A stretch of DNA of 64,000 bases from Mesohalobacter salilacus (lineage in GTDB: Bacteria > Bacteroidota > Bacteroidia > Flavobacteriales > Flavobacteriaceae): the NCBI GenBank assembly GCA_003931895.1, contig RRZV01000043.1, forward strand, positions 1 through 64,000, given 5' to 3'. The notes beneath the pieces are model-generated. The model did not search any database. It was not told the origin of the DNA and saw nothing but the letters and a program-made list of their open reading frames with translations. Shown piece after piece: positions 32,343 through 45,924 of the stretch. How positions within the stretch are numbered: position 1 is the first letter of the stretch; every line of letters starts with the position of its first letter. The translations under genes were made by a program, and so were the position numbers.

Positions 32343-33809
32343 TTATTTTAAAGATTTAGGAAAATTTAAGTTGTCTAAGCCAAATATCTCTGGCATAATA
32401 AAGTAAACTGCAAGCGTAATAATGATAATGGAAATGATATTCATTAAGAACCCTTTTTTGACCATATCAGATACCTTAAGATAACCCGAACCAAACACGA
32501 TAGCATTGGGTGGCGTGGCAACGGGCAACATAAACGCGCATGACGCCGAAAGAGTCACGGCTATCATGATTAAAAAAGGATGCATGTCAAAACTCAATGC
32601 TACTGGAGACAAGATAGGAAGTAGCATAGCCGTTGTAGCAAGATTAGAAGTCACTTCCGTTAAAAAATTGACCATCGCAGCAACAATCAATACAAACACA
32701 ATTACAACGACACCCTCAAAAACAGTAATTTGGCTAGCAATCCAATTTGCTAGACCTGTTTCTGTAAAACCCTTAGCTAACGCCATACCTCCACCAAATA
32801 AAATGATGATGCCCCAAGGAATTTTAACTGCTTCTTCCCAAGTTAAAAGCTTTTGACCTTTTTCATTTTTAGAAGGAATTAAAAACAACAATACCGCAGC
32901 TGAAATCGCAATAATAGTATCATCTATACCTGGAATAATGTTTTGAATTAAACTTCTAAAAATCCAGCCTAAAGCCGCGAGTAAAAATACTACACCGACC
33001 ATTTTTTCTTCGTAGGATAAATGGCCTAATTTGTTAATCATCTCTTGTATTTGATGCTTTCCACCTGTAAATTTCAAGTTTTTAAGTTTAAAAGCAACCG
33101 ATGTTAAATACTTCCAGCAAATAAATAACAACAACATAGACACAGGAAATGCAAAAGTCATCCACTCAAAAAAACCAATTTTGATATCGTATAAATTTTC
33201 TAAAACTCCTGCTAAAACCAAGTTAGGTGGCGTTCCTATTAACGTGCTGATACCACCTATTGATGCACTGTAGGCAATAGATAGCATCAAAGCTTTAGAA
33301 AAATAAGTATTGGTTTCTTGATTATCTTGATTTTGCTCAAAAATTTGATTAGTGATCGCAATGGCAATAGGCAACATCATAACAGTTGTTGCCGTATTGG
33401 ATATCCACATCGATAAAAATGCAGTCGCCAACATAAACCCCAAGATTAATAAAGAGGCTTTTGAACCAATTGTTTTAATAATATACAATGCTATGCGCTT
33501 GTGTAAATTCCAACGTTCTATAGCAACAGCTAAAATAAAACCACCAACATATAAAAATACAAATTTATGGCCGTATTGGGCTGTGGTTTCAGATAGCTTC
33601 AACACATTAAATATGGGAAATAAAATAATAGGAATCAAAGCCGTCACGGCAATAGGCACGACTTCAAAAATCCACCAAATGGCCATCCAAAGTGTAATGC
33701 CAAGTAGCATAAACGCATTTGTTTCAAGACCTTCTGGCGGTTTTATTATTAAAAAAATGATAAAAACCAAAGGGCCTAAAAGCTTAAATATGTATGCCTT
33801 AACTTTCAC
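32343..33809 (-). CDS. DASS (SLC13) family sodium-coupled anion symporter
   Basis: This 488-aa membrane protein has about 11-12 helices. Both DASS signature motifs occur, each with its downstream partner: SNTATTVMMLPI with GTPPNLVLAG, and TSNLATTAMLLPI with ATPPNAIVFGSGYL. Family members import C4-dicarboxylates, citrate or sulfate with Na+. The start is GTG at 33809, directly next to the stop of the upstream porin (TAA then GTG). As the last gene of the iadA operon, dicarboxylate or aspartate-derived acids are the likely substrate. Confidence 0.9.
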   Translation of the reverse strand: MKVKAYIFKLLGPLVFIIFLIIKPPEGLETNAFMLLGITLWMAIWWIFEVVPIAVTALIPIILFPIFNVLKLSETTAQYGHKFVFLYVGGFILAVAIERWNLHKRIALYIIKTIGSKASLLILGFMLATAFLSMWISNTATTVMMLPIAIAITNQIFEQNQDNQETNTYFSKALMLSIAYSASIGGISTLIGTPPNLVLAGVLENLYDIKIGFFEWMTFAFPVSMLLLFICWKYLTSVAFKLKNLKFTGGKHQIQEMINKLGHLSYEEKMVGVVFLLAALGWIFRSLIQNIIPGIDDTIIAISAAVLLFLIPSKNEKGQKLLTWEEAVKIPWGIIILFGGGMALAKGFTETGLANWIASQITVFEGVVVIVFVLIVAAMVNFLTEVTSNLATTAMLLPILSPVALSFDMHPFLIMIAVTLSASCAFMLPVATPPNAIVFGSGYLKVSDMVKKGFLMNIISIIIITLAVYFIMPEIFGLDNLNFPKSLK

Positions 33810-35090
33810 TTAAAGCGCAATGTGAAAGATGAGTTCAAATTGATTAATGGCTTCTCCCATTACAGGGTCAATTCTAGAATATGAGGCTTGTATTTTCAAT
33901 GCATTTTCATAGAAGTACTTTGATACACCAAGAGTAGTCGCATCTATTTCAGTTAATACAGATCCTGCGAAAGTTTCAAATTCTGGTGTTGTTGTTTCGT
34001 ACCTGGCATCAAAGCTAAAACCACTTTTTGTTAAATAACCCAATTGAAAATTATAACTATCTCCTAAAGCTAAAAATTCGCTAATTTGTTGTGGTCTGAG
34101 TATTTCTGTTGCAGATTCGTCAACATATGTAATGTCAATATTTGTAGCTGTAGTGTTGGCATATTCTGCTAAAAATGAAAAGCCTTTATACTTTAAAAGT
34201 AAATCTGTGTAAAGTTGTCTGTAATCAGGGAGATTATTATTTCCGTTTTCATCAAAAAGGAAAAAGTCACCATGGCTCTCGCCCACGGAACCGCTGGCAC
34301 CATCGTTTTGGCTACCGGCAATACCAAGTACAAATTTGAGTTTATCTTCTCTTTTTAAATCAACACTGGTTATTTCATTGCCTGGCTTAAAGAACCCGAG
34401 TGGATAGATGTCCAAACGACCGCCAATTTTTATACCACCGATGTCAGAATCTCTAGAGTCCTCGCCAAAAGAATTTCTACCATCTCCAGAAGTTAAAGCC
34501 GCCATAGGAGCAATACCGAATGATTCTCCTAATTTAAATTGAGATTCTACAAATACCCCAAATTCACGCCCGGTTTTTGACAGGTTTTGACTTAAAAAAC
34601 TTCGATTTACAAATTGTAATCTGTCTTCTCTGTATAACATTTCTCGGTTATTCACAAAGGTTTGCTTCTGTCCGAAACTTAATTTTAATTCCTCTATAGG
34701 GTGATAGGCTATCCAAGCATCCATCAAAGGATTTGTTAAACTAAAATCTAATTGAACAAAAAAGGACACTTTTTCTTTTAAAGCTGCACCATCAAATTGA
34801 AGGAATGTACGCTTAGATCTAAATTGATCGACATCCTCTAAACCGTCTACTGTTTCTTTAAAATAACCAGGTTGGATAAACCCCGTAACGTTAAAAAGGT
34901 AATCGCCTTCGTTAAAAGAAAAATTTAAACCGCTACCTAAGCTGTAATTGGCAAAGTTTCTTTCAGTTTTTGATTCTGAGTCAGGATCTTCTTCTACAAA
35001 TTCATCTTGGGCAACAACAGAATTTGCCGTACCAATACAAAAAGCGAGGATTAAAAATTGGATTGTGTTTATGTTTATGAATCGTTTCAT
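33810..35090 (-). CDS. OprO/OprP-type porin, copy 1
   Basis: This 426-aa outer-membrane barrel has a signal peptide ending near residue 27 (SVVAQ). The mature part alternates aromatic and charged strands and carries GFIQPGYF, SKRTFLQFDGAALKEKVSFF and LSFGQKQTFVNNRE, typical of the phosphate-selective porin O/P family. It ends with a strand closing in Leu (FHIAL). In Bacteroidota these porins are not limited to phosphate. It sits between the M14 peptidase and the DASS symporter genes and has a paralogue two genes upstream (36643-38007). It is probably an entry route for small anionic peptides or acids; that role is inferred from context. Confidence 0.82.
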   Translation of the reverse strand: MKRFININTIQFLILAFCIGTANSVVAQDEFVEEDPDSESKTERNFANYSLGSGLNFSFNEGDYLFNVTGFIQPGYFKETVDGLEDVDQFRSKRTFLQFDGAALKEKVSFFVQLDFSLTNPLMDAWIAYHPIEELKLSFGQKQTFVNNREMLYREDRLQFVNRSFLSQNLSKTGREFGVFVESQFKLGESFGIAPMAALTSGDGRNSFGEDSRDSDIGGIKIGGRLDIYPLGFFKPGNEITSVDLKREDKLKFVLGIAGSQNDGASGSVGESHGDFFLFDENGNNNLPDYRQLYTDLLLKYKGFSFLAEYANTTATNIDITYVDESATEILRPQQISEFLALGDSYNFQLGYLTKSGFSFDARYETTTPEFETFAGSVLTEIDATTLGVSKYFYENALKIQASYSRIDPVMGEAINQFELIFHIAL

Positions 35091-35111
35091 ATCGATTTAG
35101 TTTTATTGCGC

Positions 35112-36641
35112 TTAGTTTATTAATCTATATATGGGTAAAGTTTCTCCTTTTTTGGTTTCTAAAACACCAAAACTCACAAAACTATTTGGAGCTTCTGGTT
35201 CTAGTATAACGCTAGCAAGATTTGCTCGGCGTTGATCCATCATAATAATTGTGGTTCCTTTTGGAAAGGTTTTTTCTTCCTTTACCAAATTGACCCCAAC
35301 TGTTTGTAATTTCATTTTTTCATATCGTATAGGTTTTCTCCAATAAGAATCTACCACATACTTTTCAATTTTAAAGCTCTTTTCTTCTTCTAAGACTTGA
35401 ACTTCTATACCTAAAGTTTCTAATTTTTCAATAAGGTCTGTTCTGTTGGCATCTATGATATAAGCTTTAGGTCTTGATCGGGTTAGCTTGGGTTTTGCCT
35501 TCCAAGCATCGCGAATGGTCATTTCAAATTCTACATATTCAGCTGCACTTACATCAATAAATTTGACACTATCTTTATAAACACCTCTTTCATAATCTAC
35601 AACAACCTTATTATTTTGTTTAGTTGCTTTTTTGATTTCATTTTTTACAAGTTGAACATTTTCTGCAGCTGTTCTTAAATACGACATAGCAATAAGAAAG
35701 CTAGAATGGATTCTTCTTTTGAATGAAGTCCTTCCCAAAGCAACACCTCTAATTTCAACAAGTGTTGAAATAGTGTTGGTTAATGCGTTATTCGTTGCAC
35801 TGGATCTGGCGCTTATAGAGCCTTGATTGATGTGTATTTCCCCATAATGTTTACGAGATGATATGTAAGGGTGATGGGTGTAATCATGTTCATCTAAAAC
35901 CTGTCTTGTATTTTCAACAAAAAGTTCATTAGTGAGCGTCCTTAAGTTTTGAGGAATATTAAGATTTCCACTGTATAAAAACATGGCATCGTACATATTG
36001 GTTACCCCAAAATCTCCCATTCTGGCATAATCTCTTCGGTAGGGTCTATACTCATGAAAATCTACGGCAACTTCTGGATTGAATTTAGCAAAAGCTTTCT
36101 TCAAAATTACAGTCTCCGGCGCCATAAGTTTGGTTTGATCTCTATTCAGATCAAGCCCGTTGGCGGCATACCTGTTGTTTTTTAAGTAACCGTCTATGTT
36201 GGCCATTGGGATTACAGCCAACTCTACATTTTCTAATATGTCTGCATAACTCTCACCATTAAGTAGCCGATCTAATAAATATAACAAAGACTCTGTACTG
36301 GCTGGTTCATTGCCGTGAAGACCGCCTTGCATCCAAACTTTTATTTTTTCTTTATCGTTAGGCGTAGTCAATATTACCATAGGAATGTCTCTTCCTTTTT
36401 GACTTTTACCGATAAAAGACATTGAAATTTTGTCTGAATGATTGTCCGCAAGATTATCAAGAAAACTGAGTAATTCTTCATAATTCGTATATCCTCTTTT
36501 CTTTTGTAAAGCAGGTGTAGTCTCAAGGACTTGATCAGGATTAGGAAAGAACTTTTCGGTTATTTTTTTGGATTGCGGATTCAGTTGGGCGTTAGTTGTA
36601 AAACCAACCAAAACACATAATATGATCACTATATTTTTCAT
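35112..36641 (-). CDS. M14-family zinc carboxypeptidase, exported
   Basis: This 509-aa protein has a signal peptide (1-18, TTNAQ). The M14 metal site is complete: His109 and Glu112 in GLHGNEP, His196 in VDFHEY. Substrate-binding Asn166-Arg167 lie in LDLNRDQ. The catalytic Glu296 is in STLVEIRG. A ~170-residue C-terminal part (340-509) is beta-rich and of unknown role. M14 enzymes release C-terminal residues or cut amide bonds in peptides and peptidoglycan. It lies 1 base after porin copy 2 and 21 bases before copy 1, so it probably acts in the periplasm or at the surface, feeding the transporters. Its side-chain preference cannot be read from the sequence. Confidence 0.88.
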   Translation of the reverse strand: MKNIVIILCVLVGFTTNAQLNPQSKKITEKFFPNPDQVLETTPALQKKRGYTNYEELLSFLDNLADNHSDKISMSFIGKSQKGRDIPMVILTTPNDKEKIKVWMQGGLHGNEPASTESLLYLLDRLLNGESYADILENVELAVIPMANIDGYLKNNRYAANGLDLNRDQTKLMAPETVILKKAFAKFNPEVAVDFHEYRPYRRDYARMGDFGVTNMYDAMFLYSGNLNIPQNLRTLTNELFVENTRQVLDEHDYTHHPYISSRKHYGEIHINQGSISARSSATNNALTNTISTLVEIRGVALGRTSFKRRIHSSFLIAMSYLRTAAENVQLVKNEIKKATKQNNKVVVDYERGVYKDSVKFIDVSAAEYVEFEMTIRDAWKAKPKLTRSRPKAYIIDANRTDLIEKLETLGIEVQVLEEEKSFKIEKYVVDSYWRKPIRYEKMKLQTVGVNLVKEEKTFPKGTTIIMMDQRRANLASVILEPEAPNSFVSFGVLETKKGETLPIYRLIN

Positions 36642-36642
36642 C

Positions 36643-38007
36643 TTAAAATGCTAAGGTTAAAATTAGTCTAAAGATTTGTTCATCACCAGGAAGCTTTTCG
36701 CCTTGGTTGTCATTAATGCCGTCTTCACCAGCGTTCACCCATGTATAGGAAGCTTGAATTTTAGCGCCGTAACTTCTGTTTAAATACTTACTTACACCGA
36801 TGGTATAATAATCTGGTCTGTTGTAGAAGGTGGCGTTATTTAGAAATGAAAATCTATCAGCGTTGATATGGGTATATCTGGCATCTACAGAAAAACCATT
36901 TTTAAACAAATAGCCTCCTTGAATATTGTAAGCTTCACCCAACATCATTTGTCGTCTGGCATATTCCTGAGGAGTAAAATCTCTAAATTCATCAGATGTT
37001 GGTGAGACTCTACCTCTAAATCTATCGGTTAAAACATTGATATCATCACCAAATATGTCGTTCCTAAGGTTGATATCATTTGGAATATCTGCAAAACTCT
37101 TGTGATATTCACCTATTACTGAAAAGCCTTTGTATTTGAACATGAAGTCTATACCAAATTTACCATAATCAGGAAGCCTTTCTTCTCCATCATCTAGCAT
37201 GCCATTACCATTTATATCATTGAGATAAAAAATTCTGCCACTATTTCTACCCCTCCTACTACTTATTCCGTCGTTGTAGTTTATAGTAGCCCCTACAACT
37301 AATTTTGGGGTAAGCTCTCGTACAACATCGGCTTGTCTAAATTGACCGAAATTGGTAAAAAGACCAAAAGGTAAAAAGTCCAGACGGGCGCCATATTTTA
37401 AACCTCCTCGATCATTTGTAAAAGCATTGGCTCCGTCTCCGTTTGTAACGGTTATATAAGGCTTAAGATAGGTTCCTCTACCTGTTCTGAACGATCCTTT
37501 TGCGAAAAAACCGAATTCACGAATACTTGCAAAAGCAGAGGTCAATCTACTACGTTCTGGTAACTGCAATGAATAAGAATTCATAAAAAGCTCTCGATTA
37601 TCTGTGTATGTAGCTCGTTGCCCAAAAATAAATTCTATTCGCCTGGCAATTTTATATGATATATAGGCATCTAAAAGAAAGCTATTGATGTCTCTTTCGG
37701 CTTCGTCTGCTCCAGCCAAATCTACCTGAAACCTGTATCCAAACCTTTCATTTGCAGATTTCCCAGAGAGCCTAACACGTAATCTTCTCATTCTAAACCT
37801 GTCCCCGCTTGATTGGTCAGAACCCTCATAGATTTCTGAATCGAAATAGGGTTGTATATACCCCTCTATTTTCATCGTACTGCCATTGGAATTTGTGAAA
37901 CTATAGCCTTCACCAAAGTTATATGAACTCAAACGGGTATTTTGAGCAAAACTTTCTAAAAAGCCCATTATTACAATAACAGTAACAATAATTTTGAATA
38001 CTTTCAT
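36643..38007 (-). CDS. OprO/OprP-type porin, copy 2
   Basis: This 454-aa outer-membrane barrel is related to the porin at 33810-35090 (shared IEGYIQPYF, RMRRLRVRLSGK, IFGQRATYTDNRE and REFGFF-type segments). The signal peptide (MKVFKIIVTV... SFAQ) fits the ATG at 38007. The longer frame from 38034 would overlap iadA and add nine residues before the signal. The C-terminal LTLAF strand is typical. It lies directly after iadA and before the M14 gene in the same operon. Two porins with one peptidase suggests a dedicated uptake pathway. Confidence 0.82.
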   Translation of the reverse strand: MKVFKIIVTVIVIMGFLESFAQNTRLSSYNFGEGYSFTNSNGSTMKIEGYIQPYFDSEIYEGSDQSSGDRFRMRRLRVRLSGKSANERFGYRFQVDLAGADEAERDINSFLLDAYISYKIARRIEFIFGQRATYTDNRELFMNSYSLQLPERSRLTSAFASIREFGFFAKGSFRTGRGTYLKPYITVTNGDGANAFTNDRGGLKYGARLDFLPFGLFTNFGQFRQADVVRELTPKLVVGATINYNDGISSRRGRNSGRIFYLNDINGNGMLDDGEERLPDYGKFGIDFMFKYKGFSVIGEYHKSFADIPNDINLRNDIFGDDINVLTDRFRGRVSPTSDEFRDFTPQEYARRQMMLGEAYNIQGGYLFKNGFSVDARYTHINADRFSFLNNATFYNRPDYYTIGVSKYLNRSYGAKIQASYTWVNAGEDGINDNQGEKLPGDEQIFRLILTLAF

Positions 38008-38023
38008 ATTAATAAGTGTTATA

Positions 38024-39172
38024 CTATAGTTCAAAATTTCCTTTCACTATAATTTTTTTATCTTTCATCATCTCTCGTCCTTTGGCAAAAACGTCTATGA
38101 GGTTTAAGTTCTCGTCAAAGCAGCAAATATCAGCATCATAGCCTATAGCGATTTGACCCTTATGTTTTAAACCTAGGTTTTCTGCGGGATTAGTGGTGTT
38201 TAATTTAAAAGCCATTTCAATAGGTAGACCACCTTGTTTTACCAAAGCTTGAATTTGTTTAAAATTAGCATCTATAGGCGCTTTTCTTACGCCAATGGCA
38301 TTTCCAGCATCATTAAATTTGGTTAATCCTGCATGTCCATCTGTACTAAAGGTCATTTTATCTATTGAAACACCTTCATCTAAGGCATAAATTACAGATT
38401 TGTAGGGCTCAGTATATTTTGAAGCACCTGTTGTGATGTCTATCATCCCTCCCAGTTTAGCAAACTCAATAGCTTGGTCAAACAATGGTTTTGTTCTTCC
38501 GACGTGAGTTGGCGAGATATGTTTGATAGGAAAATGATAGTCCTTAACCAGTTCGAATAACACATCCATTTTGCTTGGCAGGTCTCCCAAGTGCAAATGA
38601 AGAATACCTTTTTTGCCACCTATCATTCCACCAACCATTATGTCTCTCAATTTTCTGACTAAATCTGTAGCGCTTGGGTAAGAGGAGCGAATATCACTGA
38701 TGGCAATCTTTACTCCAAGTACTTTATCTATAAAAAGCATATCACCCTGAATACTATCTGTAATAGTAACGGTGTCCATACCATAATATCCACTAAACAT
38801 ATAAGCTGAAATTCCTTCTTGGTTTAGACCTTTTATTTTCGCGTAAAGCGTTCTGATATTTCTAGCAGTACCGTCAGTGCCTAAAAGACTATTAACAGTT
38901 GTCGAGCCACAAGCAACAAGTTCGCTTAACTGAACTTCTGGTGTCATTGAAGCAAAACCTTCTTTGCCACCCGCACCAATCACATGAATATGCTGATCAA
39001 TCAACCCGGGTGTTACAATTTTACCTTCTAAGTCTATGGTTTTTGTATGCTTATTTTCAAACTCAGAAAGATTATCATCAATTGCTACAATTTTATCATT
39101 AGCTATTAAGATGTCTTTCATTCCCATTTTTTGTGGGCTATAGAGTTTAGTATGTTTTAAAAGTGTGAGCAT
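38024..39172 (-). CDS. iadA: Isoaspartyl dipeptidase (beta-aspartyl peptidase)
   Basis: This 382-aa amidohydrolase cleaves beta-aspartyl dipeptides. All residues of the E. coli IadA site have counterparts: His61 and His63 in DQHIHVIG, Glu71 in GGKEGF, the carboxylated Lys155 in GVKIAISD, His194 in HLGD, His223 and Arg226 in THVGR, and Asp278 in FSTDGHAG. No signal peptide is visible, so it should work in the cytoplasm after uptake. It lies 4 bases behind a DcuC-type transporter and ahead of a porin and the M14 peptidase. This gene is the best clue to the substrate of the locus. Confidence 0.93.
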   Translation of the reverse strand: MLTLLKHTKLYSPQKMGMKDILIANDKIVAIDDNLSEFENKHTKTIDLEGKIVTPGLIDQHIHVIGAGGKEGFASMTPEVQLSELVACGSTTVNSLLGTDGTARNIRTLYAKIKGLNQEGISAYMFSGYYGMDTVTITDSIQGDMLFIDKVLGVKIAISDIRSSYPSATDLVRKLRDIMVGGMIGGKKGILHLHLGDLPSKMDVLFELVKDYHFPIKHISPTHVGRTKPLFDQAIEFAKLGGMIDITTGASKYTEPYKSVIYALDEGVSIDKMTFSTDGHAGLTKFNDAGNAIGVRKAPIDANFKQIQALVKQGGLPIEMAFKLNTTNPAENLGLKHKGQIAIGYDADICCFDENLNLIDVFAKGREMMKDKKIIVKGNFEL

Positions 39173-39176
39173 AAAT

Positions 39177-40544
39177 TTAGATAAAATGATAAGTTAACAT
39201 AATGGCTAAAGCAACGGTCAACGGGATAATATTTCGTTTTACAATATCAATTGTTGAAACTTTAGCAATTTCTGCAGTTGCGATTATGACACCTGCTACG
39301 GGCGAAACTGTTCTTCCCATTGAAGCTGAAAACTGCATGGGTAAAATAATAGAACTGGTTTCTGCACCAAGTCCATTAGAAATTTTCGGCACTAATGGTC
39401 CAAAAGCAAAGAACGAAGCATTTCCACTACCCATGAGCATGGATGCTAAAAAAATCATGATTGACATAACCACACCAATACCAATAGCTGCAAAACCTGC
39501 GTTTTGAGCAAAGACCAATAAACCATCTATAAAACCAAGACTAATTAAACCTTTAGCAAATATATCTGCTGTAATGATTAACGTAACTACAGTTTTAAAA
39601 ATATTACCCATACCATTCCAGAAAACCTTTAGTGAATCAAAAACCTGTTTAAGTTTTCGTTTTCTAAAGCCTTCAAAAATCAAAGCAATAAAAAGACTTA
39701 TAAACATTGCCGTTGTCGTATCTAAACTAATAGGTGTTGGGAAAAAACTGAATAGCTTTGAAAAAACAATGAGTAGCAAAATTGGTAAAACAGGAATAAT
39801 TGCATAAATGAGAGGAACATCTAATTTTTTTTCTGTTTTGTATTTATCTTCTAAGACGTTTTCATCTTCAATTTTTCTGTCAAAATACCTATTAACGAAA
39901 TAATAAGTAATCATCATTGAAATACTCAAAGGCCAAACCAAAGGAATTTGATAATCTACCAGATAAGGTATGATTGAAATATCGCAAATTGCAGCAGCGC
40001 TTACAGTCATAGCTGATGCTGGACCCATTCCAAAAGCCGTAGTAGCGGTAATGACAGACACAGCGGATAATCTGCTCACGCCTAAATTGACTAAAATTGG
40101 AAATAGAGATGCCATGAGCAGCAAACTTAAACCCGCAGCAGAAGGAATTGAGACAAATAACATTTGACCTATAGGTATAACCATAGACGCAGCGATATAA
40201 GGTTTCTTTTTAAACAATTTTAGAGGCTTCATAGCTACATGAACTAAAGCTCCTGAGGCACCAATTTTATCGATGTATGCAACAAACCCACCAATGGCCA
40301 TAATCATTAACCCAACACCGGCATTAGTTTTACTAAATGACTCTTTCACATATCTAAAAAAATCAAAACCAATAAAACCAGTCTCCTCTTTGAGTAAAGG
40401 AAGATTATAATTTAATAGAAATGATATAAGTAACATCAACAACCCAGACACCAATAAAATGGCGTGCGGATTATGCTTTTTTAATAGCAATCGTGCAACG
40501 ATGACTATAAATATTAGTGAAATGATGACACCTGAGTATTCCAT
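39177..40544 (-). CDS. DcuC-type C4-dicarboxylate / peptide-acid transporter
   Basis: This 455-aa membrane protein has about 11-12 helices. It resembles the DcuC/YfcC group of C4-dicarboxylate or peptide-related transporters: a long N-terminal helix-rich half, GIGVVMSIMIFLASMLMGSGNA-like and QFSASMGRTVSPVAGVI segments in the second half. The substrate is not evident from sequence. It is encoded 4 bases before iadA and 9 bases after the lamin-tail lipoprotein. Import of aspartyl dipeptides, or exchange of aspartate or fumarate, would fit that position. Confidence 0.8.
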   Translation of the reverse strand: MEYSGVIISLIFIVIVARLLLKKHNPHAILLVSGLLMLLISFLLNYNLPLLKEETGFIGFDFFRYVKESFSKTNAGVGLMIMAIGGFVAYIDKIGASGALVHVAMKPLKLFKKKPYIAASMVIPIGQMLFVSIPSAAGLSLLLMASLFPILVNLGVSRLSAVSVITATTAFGMGPASAMTVSAAAICDISIIPYLVDYQIPLVWPLSISMMITYYFVNRYFDRKIEDENVLEDKYKTEKKLDVPLIYAIIPVLPILLLIVFSKLFSFFPTPISLDTTTAMFISLFIALIFEGFRKRKLKQVFDSLKVFWNGMGNIFKTVVTLIITADIFAKGLISLGFIDGLLVFAQNAGFAAIGIGVVMSIMIFLASMLMGSGNASFFAFGPLVPKISNGLGAETSSIILPMQFSASMGRTVSPVAGVIIATAEIAKVSTIDIVKRNIIPLTVALAIMLTYHFI

Positions 40545-40553
40545 TAATTTAAT

Positions 40554-41558
40554 TTAAAATGAAGTTCCATCTAGTTTTGTCCCAGGTGAATATAATGCGC
40601 CATTAGCCTCTGGAATGTCTTGGTCGTGTTGAACAAATTCTCCAGTTAAATCTGGATTTCTGGTATAAGATTCGTTAGGATTATTGGAAAGTGGTTCAAC
40701 ATCAAATGTCAAAACAGGATTTCCACTCGGGTCAGCAAGGGTTACAAAATCTCCAGAATTATTCATATTAATAACACTTTCTGATGCAGTTTGAACGATT
40801 GCTCCACCAAAATCACCAGTAGGAGTTCCACCACCAAAGACAACTAAAACACCATTAACTGGTAAGACAGTGCCTTGTGGAAAAATGTGTCTGATTTGTT
40901 CTGCATCTGAAATTGTGTAGCCTGATAAATCTAATTCTGGGCCAGAATTAAAGAACTCGATAAACTCATCTTCATTAGGATCTCTGGTACCGTCATTATT
41001 AGCGTCACCAGGACTTCCAGAAGGTGGGTCGTATAAAACTTCATTAATTAAAAACCCTAAGAAAGGACAACCGTTATTTTCAACATCTCCAGGAGTATTA
41101 GGACAATCATCATTAGCGTCTAATATGCCATCACCATCAGTATCAGAATCGTCGTCAAGCATAGATATTTCAATTGCACCAGATAGAACCAAAAAGCCAG
41201 AGCCTCCAGCTAGTGATACGCTTATAGTTTCAATACCTTCTATTTCTTCATCTTGATTTCCTGTTAGAATGACACTACCACTAGTATCTCCATCTTCTAT
41301 AATAATTTGATTAGATGATGGAGTGTAGTCTTGCCCATCAGTTGCTGATCCATCAAAAGTAATTGGTACTGTAGTTGCGCCAATACTAGAGGAATTTAAT
41401 GTGGCAATTACTTCAACTGTACCATTGGCTTCGCTAAGTTCAGCATTATTTGAGGTGAGCTCAATAGCTGGCTGAATATCGTCTGTTGTACAAGCGTGTT
41501 GAAATAGACAAAGCGTAAGAATAACTACTACACGAATTATGTTTTTACATCTGTTCAT
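40554..41558 (-). CDS. Surface lipoprotein with Calx-beta, thrombospondin type-3 and lamin-tail domains
   Basis: This 334-aa protein has a lipobox ending HAC (Cys23) followed by Thr-Thr-Asp-Asp, an acidic signal like those that send Bacteroidota lipoproteins to the surface. A Calx-beta-like domain spans about 40-135, one thrombospondin type-3 repeat (DTDGDGILD...DDCPNTPG) about 141-167, and a lamin-tail domain about 168-334. The last contains a calcium loop, DANNDGTRD. The lamin-tail domain closely matches that of the neighbouring secreted protein. It is first in the seven-gene operon with iadA and the porins. A binding role at the cell surface is inferred; no enzymatic motif is seen. Confidence 0.78.
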   Translation of the reverse strand: MNRCKNIIRVVVILTLCLFQHACTTDDIQPAIELTSNNAELSEANGTVEVIATLNSSSIGATTVPITFDGSATDGQDYTPSSNQIIIEDGDTSGSVILTGNQDEEIEGIETISVSLAGGSGFLVLSGAIEISMLDDDSDTDGDGILDANDDCPNTPGDVENNGCPFLGFLINEVLYDPPSGSPGDANNDGTRDPNEDEFIEFFNSGPELDLSGYTISDAEQIRHIFPQGTVLPVNGVLVVFGGGTPTGDFGGAIVQTASESVINMNNSGDFVTLADPSGNPVLTFDVEPLSNNPNESYTRNPDLTGEFVQHDQDIPEANGALYSPGTKLDGTSF

Positions 41559-41643
41559 AAGTCATAAATTATAGAGTTTCAACTGAAATAAATACTATAC
41601 ACTTATACCAGTTTTTATATAAAACAATACCAATTCTATCTGA

Positions 41644-41687
41644 AATATTAAAAAGACCGTCAAATAAGTGACAGTCTTTTTAATATT
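41644..41687 (-). terminator. Bidirectional rho-independent terminator
   Basis: Arms of 19 bases (41644-41662 and 41669-41687) pair with a single C/A mismatch around a 6-base loop. Runs of A and T flank both sides. It starts 3 bases after the stop of the minus-strand lamin-tail gene and separates it from the iadA operon, which therefore needs its own promoter. Confidence 0.85.
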
Positions 41688-41690
41688 ATA

Positions 41691-43433
41691 CTATTTGATG
41701 ATTAATTTTTTAGTTATTGATCGGTTAGAAACTGATATTTTAACTAAATATACACCACTTCTCAAATTAGATACTTCTAATCTCTCAGTTGTTAAAGTCT
41801 TGTTCATTACGATTTTCCCTGTTAAATCGTATAGCTCAATATTTGTTTCACCACTAATATTAGAGTCTATAGTTACAAATCCATTTGTGACAGGATTTGG
41901 GTATATTTTAAACTCGTTATTTAAGTTTACATCTTCAGTAGATAATGTTGTTCCATCTACACGTAATCCAGGAGAAAAAACTAAGACAGGATTGGCATTG
42001 GTATGAAAATCATAACCCCCAGTAATATCAGGGTTTCTTGTTATAGATTCATTGCTTCCAAAATCAATACCTAAATCAGATTCAAGTTGTGGACTATTTA
42101 ATTCTAATACAAAATCATCAGTACCTGTGGTTACGGTCACGACGTCTCCAGAATTTGATAAGTTTAACTGTCCATCAGAAGCTGTTTGTACAATTGCTGT
42201 TCCAAAATTACCTGTTGGTGTGCCGCCGCCAAATACTACATAAGCGCCGTTTGCTGGAATAACAGTATTAGCAGGCACTATATGTCTTGGAGTACCTGAG
42301 CCTAAAGCATTAGAGTCATAAATCTTATAGCCGCTAATGTCTAAACTAGAATTTGAGTTATTGAAAAACTCTAAAAATTCATCATCAAGAGCATCTCTTG
42401 TTCCATCGTTATTAGCATCACCTTCAACTTCAGGCGTTGCACCATCGTCACTTGGGGGGTCAAAAAGCGCTTCGTTGAGCACTAATGGCACACAGGCTGG
42501 ACTGTCAATATCTACTGATAAATCGCAAACACCACCATCGCCAAGATCACTCAATGTTACGGTAACATCAGTACCTTCTGGAATATTCATGATTTGGATT
42601 GTTCCAGAGTCCATAATATTAGGATCATCGCCACCAACAGTTCCAGCGGTAGTTGATACTGTAAACGTATTTCCATCGTTTGCATTTGAGAAATCTATGC
42701 TTGCTGTATAAGTATCATCAGTAGAACCAACAGCTTCAGACATACAAGATACTGAAGTGGTATTTCCGAAAATTGTCGTGCAAACATTGCCTGTCGGGGT
42801 CCATCCTGAACCAGTTCCTAAAGGAAACGTCGCACCAAGACTTGCAAAATACGTTTCTAAATTAGGGCTTACAACACCACCTTGGCAAGCCGTGTGGTCA
42901 TCTAAGTCCTGTTCCGGTGTAATATCCCAGTGGGTTGGATCCCAAGTTCCAAGATCTGGTATGCCATCTAGTCGAGTTGCCACAGCATCACTGTGTTGCC
43001 AATTTGAACTTGTATCGTTATCGGCATCGGTTTCAGTTTTGCCAAATTGGCTAACCACCGTACCATTTAATACAACCTGATAGCCGTCATCACCATTGGT
43101 TGAGGTTCCAACAACTACAGTATTAGAAGCATCAAAAGTTGTGGATGGAAATTCTGCTTGCATTAATGGAATATCTCTAATAAGATAAACAAAAGAGTCG
43201 GTTTGAACACCCAAGGCAGAGACGTCGATTTGATTGTCTGCCCAAGGTGCACCATTTTGCATATAATTGATAGTAACTTCTGTAGCAAAATCAACCGTAC
43301 CATCAACATAGAGTTCTACAGTTTTAACAAAGGGACTTGAACATCCAGTCTCAATTATTTTTGTGATCGTTACATTTTGAGAAAATGTAGTCAGGCTAAA
43401 TAAGCCTAATAAGAATAAGTAAATTTTTTTCAT
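41691..43433 (-). CDS. T9SS-secreted lamin-tail domain protein
   Basis: This 580-aa protein has a signal peptide ending TTFSQ (about residue 19). An N-terminal beta-rich region (20-190) may be a first, degenerate lamin-tail-like domain. A middle beta domain (about 225-310) with paired cysteines follows, then a lamin-tail domain (about 310-480) with the calcium-type loop DANNDGTRD. The end is a type A T9SS sorting domain (about 505-580: FKIYPNPV ... GVYLVKI ... KKLIIK). It should be exported by SprA and anchored or released at the surface. It lies next to, and divergent from, the MocR-type regulator. No catalytic motif is recognised. Confidence 0.85.
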   Translation of the reverse strand: MKKIYLFLLGLFSLTTFSQNVTITKIIETGCSSPFVKTVELYVDGTVDFATEVTINYMQNGAPWADNQIDVSALGVQTDSFVYLIRDIPLMQAEFPSTTFDASNTVVVGTSTNGDDGYQVVLNGTVVSQFGKTETDADNDTSSNWQHSDAVATRLDGIPDLGTWDPTHWDITPEQDLDDHTACQGGVVSPNLETYFASLGATFPLGTGSGWTPTGNVCTTIFGNTTSVSCMSEAVGSTDDTYTASIDFSNANDGNTFTVSTTAGTVGGDDPNIMDSGTIQIMNIPEGTDVTVTLSDLGDGGVCDLSVDIDSPACVPLVLNEALFDPPSDDGATPEVEGDANNDGTRDALDDEFLEFFNNSNSSLDISGYKIYDSNALGSGTPRHIVPANTVIPANGAYVVFGGGTPTGNFGTAIVQTASDGQLNLSNSGDVVTVTTGTDDFVLELNSPQLESDLGIDFGSNESITRNPDITGGYDFHTNANPVLVFSPGLRVDGTTLSTEDVNLNNEFKIYPNPVTNGFVTIDSNISGETNIELYDLTGKIVMNKTLTTERLEVSNLRSGVYLVKISVSNRSITKKLIIK

Positions 43434-43455
43434 AAAATTATATTTAAAGTTTAAT

Positions 43456-43479
43456 AAAACGTTTTCGTAATTTGTACAA
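43456..43479. promoter_or_regulatory. Two palindromes in the divergent promoter region (candidate operators)
   Basis: AAAACGTTTT (43456-43465) and TTGTACAA (43472-43479) are perfect palindromes six bases apart in the 93-bp gap between the lamin-tail gene and the MocR gene. Their place suits binding by the regulator. Both are short and AT-rich, so chance cannot be ruled out. Confidence 0.35.
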
Positions 43480-43526
43480 TATTAAAATTAAATACATTAT
43501 ATTTATCATACCAATTAGTTTAAAAT

Positions 43527-45011
43527 ATGCATACCAGTAAAGACATTATTCTTGATTTGCTAAAACAATCTTATATTCATTTACAAACAAATCAAAAACC
43601 ACCTACTTATCTTAAGATTTTAAATTTGGTAAAACAGAAAATAGATGAGCATCAAATTCCTAAAGAGGTGTTTTTGCCTTCTACTCGTCAATTATCAAGA
43701 GCCTTAGGCGTATCTAGAAGTACTATTGTTAGAGTATATAATCTTCTTGCTATTGAAGGTTATGTTAAATCTATTCAAGGTGCGGGGTATTTAGTTAACC
43801 CTATTGATTTATCGCCTGTAAAAAAGAAAAATGTTAGTGAAAACTCCAATTATCCAGTAATATCAGATAGAGGTAAAATGTTTATCAAAAACGTTAGCCT
43901 AATGCATTCTACGGCTCAAAAAGATTTAGCCTTTAGACCGGGCTTACCACCTTTGGATGTATTTCCAGTCAACCAGTGGAAGCGTTTATTTAATAGTTAC
44001 TGGAAACAAGTGAAGTTTTCTAATTTATCGTTTTCAGATTCTTCAGGTTTAGATCATCTAAAAAAAAATGTAGCTTTATATCTTAATTTGGTTCGTGGTA
44101 TTCGATGTGATCATGAACAGATTGTTATTGTTTCAGGGTCGCTGCAATCTCTTTACCTTATAGCCAATGCGGTTTTAAATCCCATGGACAAGGTAATTAT
44201 GGAATCGCCAACTTTTCCTAACGTGCATTCTATTTTTAAAAGTTTGGGAGCTGATATTTCAGCTTTGCCCTTAGATCAAGAAGGTCTACAAATTAAATCC
44301 TTCAAAGGTAAACCGCCTAAATTGATTCATACGACACCTTCAAGCCACTATCCTACAGGAAAGCAAATGACTTTAAACCGAAAAAAGGAGTTGTTAGACT
44401 GGGCACAACAACACAAAGCTATTATTATTGAAAACGACTATGACCATGAAATTAGTAACTGGAAGCGGGAAAATAATGATGCTATATTTAGCTTAGATAA
44501 CAGTCAAAGAACAGTTTATTTAGGAACTTTTAACAGGTTACTACACCAGTCCATTCGTTTAGGATATATGGTTGTACCCTATTATTTACTAGATGTGATT
44601 AAAGCACTTCAAATGCATTCACATAGGTTTGTTTCTCCATCAAATCAAATTGTAATGAGCCAATTTATAGAAAATAACTACATTTACAGTCATATTAAAA
44701 ATGTAGTCAAAGTGGCAAAAGAAAGAAAAAGCCTTTTTGTTGAACAATTTCAGGATTTAATGCCAAGTTCTTTTAAAATTCAAGACTCAGAAGCAAGAAG
44801 TTTGCATATTCTAGTTAAAATTCCTGAACACATCAATGACAAAACTTTAAAATCAGACTTATTTAAAAGTCACATCAATGTTCACAACTATAGTCACTGT
44901 TTTTTAGAAAACTCCCAAAATGGATTAATTTTTGGATATTCGGCTGTTAAGAAGCCTATAATGACTAAAAAAATAAAGATTATGCAAAACCTCGTTAAAA
45001 AACATTTATAA
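43527..45011 (+). CDS. MocR-type regulator (GntR winged helix + aminotransferase-like domain) lacking the PLP lysine
   Basis: This 494-aa protein has a GntR-type winged helix (about 15-90: LPSTRQLSRALGVSRSTIVR) joined to a fold-type I aminotransferase-like domain (about 120-494). The cofactor pocket signatures TTPSSHYPTG and ENDYDHE are present. The segment that normally reads GTFSK...LRLGY is here GTFNRLLHQSIRLGY, with Arg337 (codon AGG at 44535-44537) in place of the lysine that forms the PLP Schiff base. It may bind PLP non-covalently or another ligand. It is divergent from the secreted lamin-tail gene, and its stop is one base before the next gene. Confidence 0.88.
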   Translation: MHTSKDIILDLLKQSYIHLQTNQKPPTYLKILNLVKQKIDEHQIPKEVFLPSTRQLSRALGVSRSTIVRVYNLLAIEGYVKSIQGAGYLVNPIDLSPVKKKNVSENSNYPVISDRGKMFIKNVSLMHSTAQKDLAFRPGLPPLDVFPVNQWKRLFNSYWKQVKFSNLSFSDSSGLDHLKKNVALYLNLVRGIRCDHEQIVIVSGSLQSLYLIANAVLNPMDKVIMESPTFPNVHSIFKSLGADISALPLDQEGLQIKSFKGKPPKLIHTTPSSHYPTGKQMTLNRKKELLDWAQQHKAIIIENDYDHEISNWKRENNDAIFSLDNSQRTVYLGTFNRLLHQSIRLGYMVVPYYLLDVIKALQMHSHRFVSPSNQIVMSQFIENNYIYSHIKNVVKVAKERKSLFVEQFQDLMPSSFKIQDSEARSLHILVKIPEHINDKTLKSDLFKSHINVHNYSHCFLENSQNGLIFGYSAVKKPIMTKKIKIMQNLVKKHL

Positions 45012-45012
45012 A

Positions 45013-45924
45013 ATGAAAAGATGGCTTAATATTTTATTAATTTTTCTAATCATAGGAAGCTGTGATAATTATGAAGAAACTGAACCTAATGGCTCTTCGA
45101 GTCAAATTAACGTTGGTACAGGCTTTTATAGTTTTAATTATGAGGCTTCAAACTCTAATATAGCAATGGATATTCATTATCATATCCCTGATGCTGATTT
45201 AAGCACAATGCCTATACTTTTTGTTTTCCATGGAGGGGGTCGAAATGCTGTTGAATATAGAAATTCTTGGATTGAAGAAGCTAACAACAGAGAATTTATA
45301 GTTATAGCACCAAAATTTTCTTCAACTGATTTTCCTAGAGGTGATGGGTATAATTTAGGCAATGTTTTTGAAGATGGTGATAATCCTTCAACATCTACTT
45401 TAAATGAGGAACAAGATTGGGCATTTTCTATTATTGAACCTCTTTTTGATGATGTCAAAAGTCAATTAGGAAATACTTCAAGTACCTATAATATTTTCGG
45501 GTTTTCGGCGGGGTCTCAGTTTGCCCATCGTTTTGTGATGTTTAAACCTAACGCTCGTGTTAACAAAATTGTGGCTTCTGCTGCAGGATGGTACACAGTA
45601 CCTGATGCTAATGTTGAATTCCCTTACGGCATAGATAACAGTCCTATTGAAAATATAGCACCGTCATCTTATTTTACAAAAAACATGACTATTCAGATTG
45701 GAACTTTAGATAATGATCCTAATGCCTCTGCTTTACGTCGTAATGCTATAGTAGATCAACAAGGCAACAACCGTTTTGACCGGGCTTTTTATATGTTTAA
45801 TACTTCCAAAATTATTGCTGAAAGTTTGGGTGAAACCTTCAATTGGCAAATTATTGAAACTCTAGGTAACAATCATAATAATAGAGAAGCTGTGGAGCAG
45901 GCTGCACAGATTTTAGGACTTTAA
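45013..45924 (+). CDS. Lipoprotein alpha/beta hydrolase (esterase/PHB-depolymerase-like)
   Basis: This 303-aa protein has a lipobox (FLIIGSC, Cys17) followed by an acidic stretch (DNYEETE), which may direct it to the cell surface. The hydrolase domain shows the oxyanion loop LFVFHGGGRN and the nucleophile elbow GFSAGSQ; a C-terminal His lies in LGNNHNN. These fit esterases related to polyhydroxybutyrate depolymerases and feruloyl esterases. It starts one base after the MocR-type gene and is surely co-transcribed with it. Substrate unknown; shared regulation with the lamin-tail/iadA genes is inferred. Confidence 0.78.
   Translation: MKRWLNILLIFLIIGSCDNYEETEPNGSSSQINVGTGFYSFNYEASNSNIAMDIHYHIPDADLSTMPILFVFHGGGRNAVEYRNSWIEEANNREFIVIAPKFSSTDFPRGDGYNLGNVFEDGDNPSTSTLNEEQDWAFSIIEPLFDDVKSQLGNTSSTYNIFGFSAGSQFAHRFVMFKPNARVNKIVASAAGWYTVPDANVEFPYGIDNSPIENIAPSSYFTKNMTIQIGTLDNDPNASALRRNAIVDQQGNNRFDRAFYMFNTSKIIAESLGETFNWQIIETLGNNHNNREAVEQAAQILGL

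Follow-up and report, generated by a model that had tools for sequence, protein, structure and literature searches.

The window analysed in this study is a stretch of 64,000 nucleotides from Mesohalobacter salilacus (assembly GCA_003931895.1, contig RRZV01000043.1, positions 1 to 64,000 of the forward strand). At 32343-45924 it carries a ten-gene locus that encodes a relative of poly(aspartic acid) hydrolase-1 (PahZ1), an IadA-family amidohydrolase, an M14 metallo-carboxypeptidase, two porins, two lamin-tail proteins, two transporters and a regulator. We believe that this locus probably serves the utilisation of a beta-linked polymer of a C4 acid, either malate or aspartate.

All ten open frames listed in an initial annotation of this DNA were present at its coordinates, as was the compact minus-strand operon that it described. 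Its seven genes span 41558 to 32343, read in that direction, and are spaced by 9, 4, -11, 1, 21 and 0 bases. The first encodes a lipoprotein with Calx-beta and lamin-tail domains (40554..41558; PF03160 and PF00932; lipobox recognised by eye). It is followed by a DcuC-family C4-dicarboxylate carrier (39177..40544; NF037994, 388.3 bits against a cut-off of 100), the IadA-family amidohydrolase, in which Glu77 is replaced by Lys and Ser289 by Gly in E. coli numbering (38024..39172; TIGR01975, 390.8 bits against 331.25), and porin A, an outer-membrane porin of the OprO/P type (36643..38034), assigned through Porin_O_P matches of relatives at the same position. The exported and probably periplasmic M14 metallo-carboxypeptidase comes next (35112..36641; PF00246, 5.2e-23, above the cut-off; signal peptide by eye). 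Porin B, of the same porin type and assigned through relatives (33810..35090), and a DASS-family sodium/dicarboxylate symporter (32343..33809; TIGR00785, 332.8 bits against a cut-off of 198.6) complete the run.

A gene for a secreted lamin-tail protein with a sorting tail of the type IX secretion system (T9SS) lies 132 bases upstream of the seven genes, also on the minus strand (41691..43433; PF00932 and PF18962 above the cut-off, TIGR04183). Beyond it, two genes stand on the plus strand. One encodes a MocR-type regulator with Arg (GTFNR) at the position of the lysine that holds pyridoxal phosphate (PLP) in such proteins (43527..45011; NF052282, 340.2 bits against a cut-off of 320), and the other the PahZ1-type serine hydrolase, with a lipoprotein signal (...GSC/DNYEE; 45013..45924). 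The divergent intergenic region between the lamin-tail operon and the MocR gene (43434..43526) is presumably a control region. A SusC/SusD pair is absent among the window genes.

Conservation and co-occurrence of the locus

In the family survey, IadA above the cut-off was found in 10 of 199 genomes. The class survey found IadA at an expectation value (E) of 1e-50 in 11 of 395 genomes, 10 of them above the cut-off. The union of both surveys (20 genomes), together with L041 (Mesohalobacter halotolerans) and L042 (a Bacteroidia metagenome-assembled genome, MAG), gave 22 IadA loci. The results showed that the arrangement is more than chance and that a core set is kept across several Bacteroidota families; the full ten-gene set is not universal. 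As far as the contigs reach, the 22 loci share the order DcuC, IadA, porin A, M14, porin B, with G512 as the one exception. The neighbours grouped by the initial annotation are conserved together: DcuC adjoins IadA in 22/22 loci and a PahZ1-like gene is part of the locus in 20/22. Porin A is next in 20 loci, and the other two have a contig end and SusC/SusD, respectively, at this place. M14 is also present in 20; the two remaining contigs end earlier, and G422 has M14 on another contig. The lamin-tail lipoprotein lies directly upstream of DcuC in 19 loci (other genes do so in G512 and G551, and the position is not visible in G170). MocR is found in 19/22 and DASS in 14/22, and three other loci have an SDF symporter.

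Three of the 20 PahZ1-positive loci rest on evidence that crosses or touches contig ends. In G170, other small contigs carry the PahZ1-like gene next to MocR/DASS and next to porin B, the G322 locus is split over two contigs, and G381 has a 71-aa PahZ1 fragment at a contig end. When PahZ1-like genes were counted at E 1e-15 in the 395 class genomes, they were present in 13, IadA in 11 and both in 10, drawn from eight family codes (Fisher p 1.4e-16, uncorrected for kinship). The two genes were on one contig and no more than 10 kb apart in nine of the ten shared genomes; the tenth is G322. The locus M14 subfamily (E 1e-80) was found in 10/395 genomes, all ten with IadA, and in G322, the eleventh IadA genome, M14 is interrupted by a contig end. 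No copy of the locus was found in the plasmid records examined, namely two of 12 with an M14 relative (one unannotated) and two of 33 with an IadA relative. Gene content, conservation and co-occurrence are established by these comparisons, as are the residue changes described below.

Features of the locus proteins

The metal ligands H68, H70, K162, H201, H230 and D285 are kept in all 22 locus IadAs. T106, R169 and R233 are also retained, as is Y137 in 20, with Phe in the other 2. In the same alignment (E. coli numbering), Glu77 is changed to Lys in 20 and to Gln in 2, and Ser289 to Gly in all 22. We take Glu77 to pair with the free alpha-amino group of the dipeptide, and Ser289 is counted here with the substrate site. 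Four outside relatives retain both residues: the enzymes of E. coli, Photobacterium (47% identity), an E. coli plasmid (44%) and a Firmicutes MAG, L043. Those of Photobacterium and the E. coli plasmid likewise adjoin DcuC, yet keep E77 and S289, and the replacement appears clade-specific as far as sampled. E77, T106 and R233 are described as substrate-binding residues of E. coli IadA that are present in LmIadA (PMC10206079, accessible part). Because E77 and S289 are replaced in the locus clade, an ordinary beta-aspartyl dipeptide is argued against as the substrate. The name isoaspartyl dipeptidase is unsafe for Bacteroidota proteins that pass the curated IadA cut-off with this altered site. 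As a separate observation, the gammaproteobacterial iadA-dcuC pairs (L123:8001-10593 and L122:9950-12612) are perhaps uptake pairs for beta-aspartyl dipeptides, and the E. coli plasmid pair is flanked by IS26 copies.

The initial annotation named isoaspartyl-damaged peptides among its possible substrates. In a general scavenging of isoaspartyl peptides from damaged proteins, the PahZ1-like enzyme would be an accessory esterase, a reading that we consider improbable. The IadA and DcuC families and the exported carboxypeptidase agree with it; the residue changes of IadA count against it, a PahZ1-like gene in 20/22 loci is too regular for an accessory, and the ten window genes include neither an endopeptidase nor a peptide transporter of the ABC or POT type.

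When the window MocR was aligned with GabR, GTFNR stood opposite the GTFSK of GabR, whose lysine we take to be the PLP-holding residue. GTFNR is present in all 18 aligned locus MocRs (the G170 copy is outside the alignment). A MocR protein without this lysine is not expected to bind an amine ligand as the usual aldimine. The changes in IadA and MocR are independent of each other, and their common direction suggests a shift away from ligands with an amino group.

The hydrolase gave three PDB matches at E up to 1. Two are chains of PahZ1 (6ve6, 1.5e-54, 38% identity; 9o7u, 2.4e-51, 37%), and the third is LpqC (3d0k, 2.3e-28, 29%). It is nearer to PahZ1 than to LpqC by identity and E, and support in the tree is weak around the PDB rows. 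Ser165, Asp233 and His288 are invariant in 20 locus rows. The function is not readable from this triad, because LpqC and three plasmid homologues share it. The PahZ1 copies of L042, L044 and L045 have longer C-termini and no lipobox; the T9SS tail is confirmed by Pfam for L045. Between porin B and DASS, where the window has no gene, L041 has a second and apparently shortened PahZ1-like gene (L041:15377-16099; 240 aa, two partial matches).

The zinc site and catalytic Glu of the M14 enzyme (H109, E112, H196, E296) are invariant in 18 aligned rows, and carboxypeptidases A/B were its first matches. R279 was considered as a specificity site for acidic residues, and this role was not shown. Porin A and porin B are homologous to each other (profile comparison, probability 100), and their profiles match a single PDB structure, Porin O, at weak E values of 0.04 and 0.13. 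Among eight porins of relatives scanned, two exceeded the Porin_O_P cut-off (L078, 6e-12; L089, 8e-14), both relatives of porin A at the same locus position, and a porin B relative in L044 fell slightly below. An Arg-rich strand of porin A is invariant in 17 aligned rows. The lamin-tail lipoprotein of the window is strongly acidic (55 D+E against 7 K+R), as were all 12 such lipoproteins counted. The carriers of the loci are DcuC, DASS or SDF; the one SDF protein scanned in NCBIfam was closest to DctA (491 bits, cut-off 513) rather than GltP (301 bits, cut-off 638).

These results bear on several family names given initially. IadA (TIGR01975 and metal ligands) and the MocR-type regulator (NF052282) stand as families, and the gene called a lipoprotein esterase is present with its lipoprotein signal. 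Cleavage of beta-Asp dipeptides has become doubtful, and the Arg of MocR and the relationship of the esterase to PahZ1 had been missed. The OprO/P label is supported by the two relatives of porin A in L078 and L089; the window copies are below Porin_O_P.

Two variant loci carry SusC and SusD, the only ones to do so among the scanned stretches. In G512 (L088), SusC, SusD, DcuC and IadA accompany a single 1009-aa open frame (L088:9804-12833), and SusC/SusD take the place of porins and lamin-tail proteins. Residues 20-290 of this frame are PahZ1, and residues 517-1008 are M14. The segment between them scores below the cut-off for DUF4886 and is related to a DUF4886 protein of G174 (7e-20), and SGNH-type motifs were seen by eye in both. 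G174, of the window's genus, has at L090:9232-18913 a PahZ1 (60% identity to that of the window), a Big_5 lipoprotein with a Calx-beta match below the cut-off, DASS, the DUF4886 protein, SusD and SusC. Its genome has no IadA at E 1e-50 and no M14 of the locus subfamily, and AddB-RecJ-LysE marks an empty site, being present without the locus beside it. The G174 locus is perhaps for a related polyester. In three f12 loci, a secreted protein of about 429 aa, with a T9SS tail by eye, was seen near PahZ1 or SDF (L085:3805-5091, L081:1791-3080, L083:259-1548).

Probable substrate

A polymer without free alpha-amino groups is favoured because of the IadA and MocR changes, the esterase-like segment fused between PahZ1 and M14 in G512, and the dicarboxylate-type transporters, whose families (DcuC, DASS and SDF) include C4-dicarboxylate carriers. 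Our preferred reading, which we place just short of an even chance, is a dedicated locus for a polymer of a beta-linked C4 dicarboxylic acid, most likely poly(beta-L-malate). The wider claim of a beta-linked C4-acid polymer, malate or aspartate, is likely, and poly(beta-L-malate) specifically is slightly more tentative than the preferred reading as a whole. Poly(beta-L-malate) is a natural polyanion of Aureobasidium and Physarum and a carbon source for some bacteria, and its calcium salt precipitates in culture (PMC9210645, in the text available).

In the scheme that follows, we infer the substrate, where each protein acts and all of the biochemistry. The acidic, perhaps Ca2+-binding lamin-tail lipoprotein and the T9SS lamin-tail protein would hold the polyanion at the cell surface, where the PahZ1-type serine hydrolase (a secreted copy in some relatives) would cut the chain. 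Anionic oligomers may then pass the paired OprO/P-type porins, and the periplasmic M14 enzyme would remove units from the carboxyl end. Monomers would enter via DASS, or the SDF symporter in some relatives, and dimers via DcuC. In the cytoplasm the IadA-like amidohydrolase would split dimers that have no free alpha-amino group, and the MocR protein, in which Arg takes the place of the PLP lysine, may sense a non-amine ligand. More tentatively still, this may be the first gene system for poly(beta-L-malate) use, as far as literature searches show. It would be free of SusCD, with IadA and MocR converted to non-amino ligands, and the natural task of PahZ1 would be to depolymerise polymalate, its action on the isosteric beta-polyaspartate being accidental.

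Several points weigh against the preferred reading. The SDF and DcuC families also hold amino-acid carriers. The triad and most conserved arginines are common to PahZ1-like proteins and LpqC, and no convincing separating residues were found. Distant homologues of the hydrolase (25-37%) occur on 15 plasmid records. The three of these that were examined had no such locus, and one was a pectin cluster; the hydrolase family is thus broad, because its homologues there sit in other contexts. A PahZ1-like gene is missing from two of the 22 loci (the one relative in G143 is unlinked, at 32%, and a search of G094 at E 1e-8 found none), and three of the 13 PahZ1-like genomes, G174, G521 and G032, are without IadA. 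In G521 and G032, no locus gene was recognised near the PahZ1-like gene. Structure predictions with three rows each gave low pLDDT values (predicted local distance difference test; M14 36.3, porin A 39.5), and the models were not used. M14 and IadA are amidase families. A polymalate hydrolase of Comamonas is without serine-esterase activity (PMC9210645, accessible part), and the cleavage target of the characterised Pedobacter PahZ1 is the beta-amide bonds of Asp trimers (PMC4456602, accessible part).

The amidase families and the Pedobacter enzyme favour the main rival substrate, which is poly(beta-aspartate) or isoaspartyl runs, for example in aged, racemised Asp-rich proteins. PahZ1 would release beta-Asp dimers, which would enter through DcuC and be split by IadA to aspartate. 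Among solved structures, PahZ1 enzymes are nearest to the hydrolase. The PahZ1 of Pedobacter sp. KP-2 cleaves beta-tri-Asp and not alpha-tri-Asp; it needs three units and leaves dimers, which it cannot cleave (PMC4456602, in the portion available). The uncleaved dimer would be the very substrate of an isoaspartyl dipeptidase. Against this, the beta-Asp dimer has a free alpha-amino group, Glu77 and Ser289 are lost in 22/22 IadAs, and the PLP lysine is absent in 18/18 aligned MocRs. Also, we know of no natural poly(beta-aspartate). We regard this substrate as unlikely, though worth serious attention.

Porins for SusCD in a dedicated locus of capture, hydrolysis and uptake, as the initial annotation proposed, agree with the conserved neighbours. 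Cyanophycin, one of its suggested substrates, was rejected, and a locus that imports and cleaves beta-Asp-Arg is very improbable. In its favour, other bacteria can use both IadA and an M14 enzyme to degrade cyanophycin (PMC10206079, accessible part), and the genome encodes an unlinked T9SS S51 protein on another contig (G000:C57:10598-11893). This protein scores 66.7 bits with TIGR02069, below the cut-off of 126.6, and the other S51 protein of the genome is PepE (NF003642, 281.3 bits). None of the ten window genes encodes an S51 peptidase. With two tail-less S51 queries, 380 open frames of 26 stretches of relatives gave zero matches, and the T9SS-tailed query gave seven weak matches in such stretches, which were taken as tail matches. 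The T9SS S51 type is present in 39/395 class genomes and in only 2 of the 11 with IadA (Fisher 0.30), which is no co-occurrence. In contrast, the Firmicutes MAG L043 has the canonical arrangement, with IadA adjoining an S51 gene. Pedobacter PahZ1 also leaves alpha bonds uncut (PMC4456602, as far as available).

Comparison with known systems

No description of such a locus was found in the literature searched, including the accessible parts of PMC4456602, PMC10206079, PMC10857468 and PMC9210645. The nearest enzymes are those of the PahZ1 system of Pedobacter sp. KP-2 and Sphingomonas sp. KT-1; the locus hydrolase shares 37-38% identity and the catalytic triad with two PahZ1 chains in the PDB. 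In the locus, M14 occupies the place where PahZ2, a different enzyme family, would act in that system. PahZ1 enzymes have been described, purified, as degraders of a synthetic polymer (PMC4456602, accessible part); here the relative stands within a ten-gene uptake locus. This places relatives of PahZ1 in a conserved natural setting, with a short and testable list of substrates.

The gammaproteobacterial iadA-dcuC pair shares two families with the locus and lies beside a LysR gene on the E. coli plasmid and in Photobacterium (the latter LysR by eye). E. coli IadA and the gammaproteobacterial pairs keep Glu77 and Ser289, and the 22 locus enzymes do not. The cyanophycin utilisation locus (Ben Hania et al., cited in PMC10206079, accessible part) likewise combines IadA with a transporter and scavenges a beta-Asp-linked polymer. 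The present locus differs in having no cyanophycinase; PahZ1, porins, M14 and lamin-tail proteins are present instead, and the IadA substrate site is altered.

The polymalate hydrolases (the 43 kDa enzyme of Comamonas and the polymalatase of Physarum) have the proposed substrate in common with the locus, and no gene locus for them was found in the literature available to our searches. By its lack of serine-esterase activity, the Comamonas enzyme is unlike the PahZ1-type serine hydrolase proposed here (PMC9210645, accessible part).

Polysaccharide loci of the SusCD type likewise combine a surface binding lipoprotein, a surface endo-enzyme, outer-membrane entry, a periplasmic exo-enzyme and their own regulator. 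Compared with these, the window has OprO/P-type porins for SusC/SusD, and its substrate is probably not a glycan. The locus suggests how outer-membrane porins and lamin-tail lipoproteins can replace SusCD in polymer utilisation.

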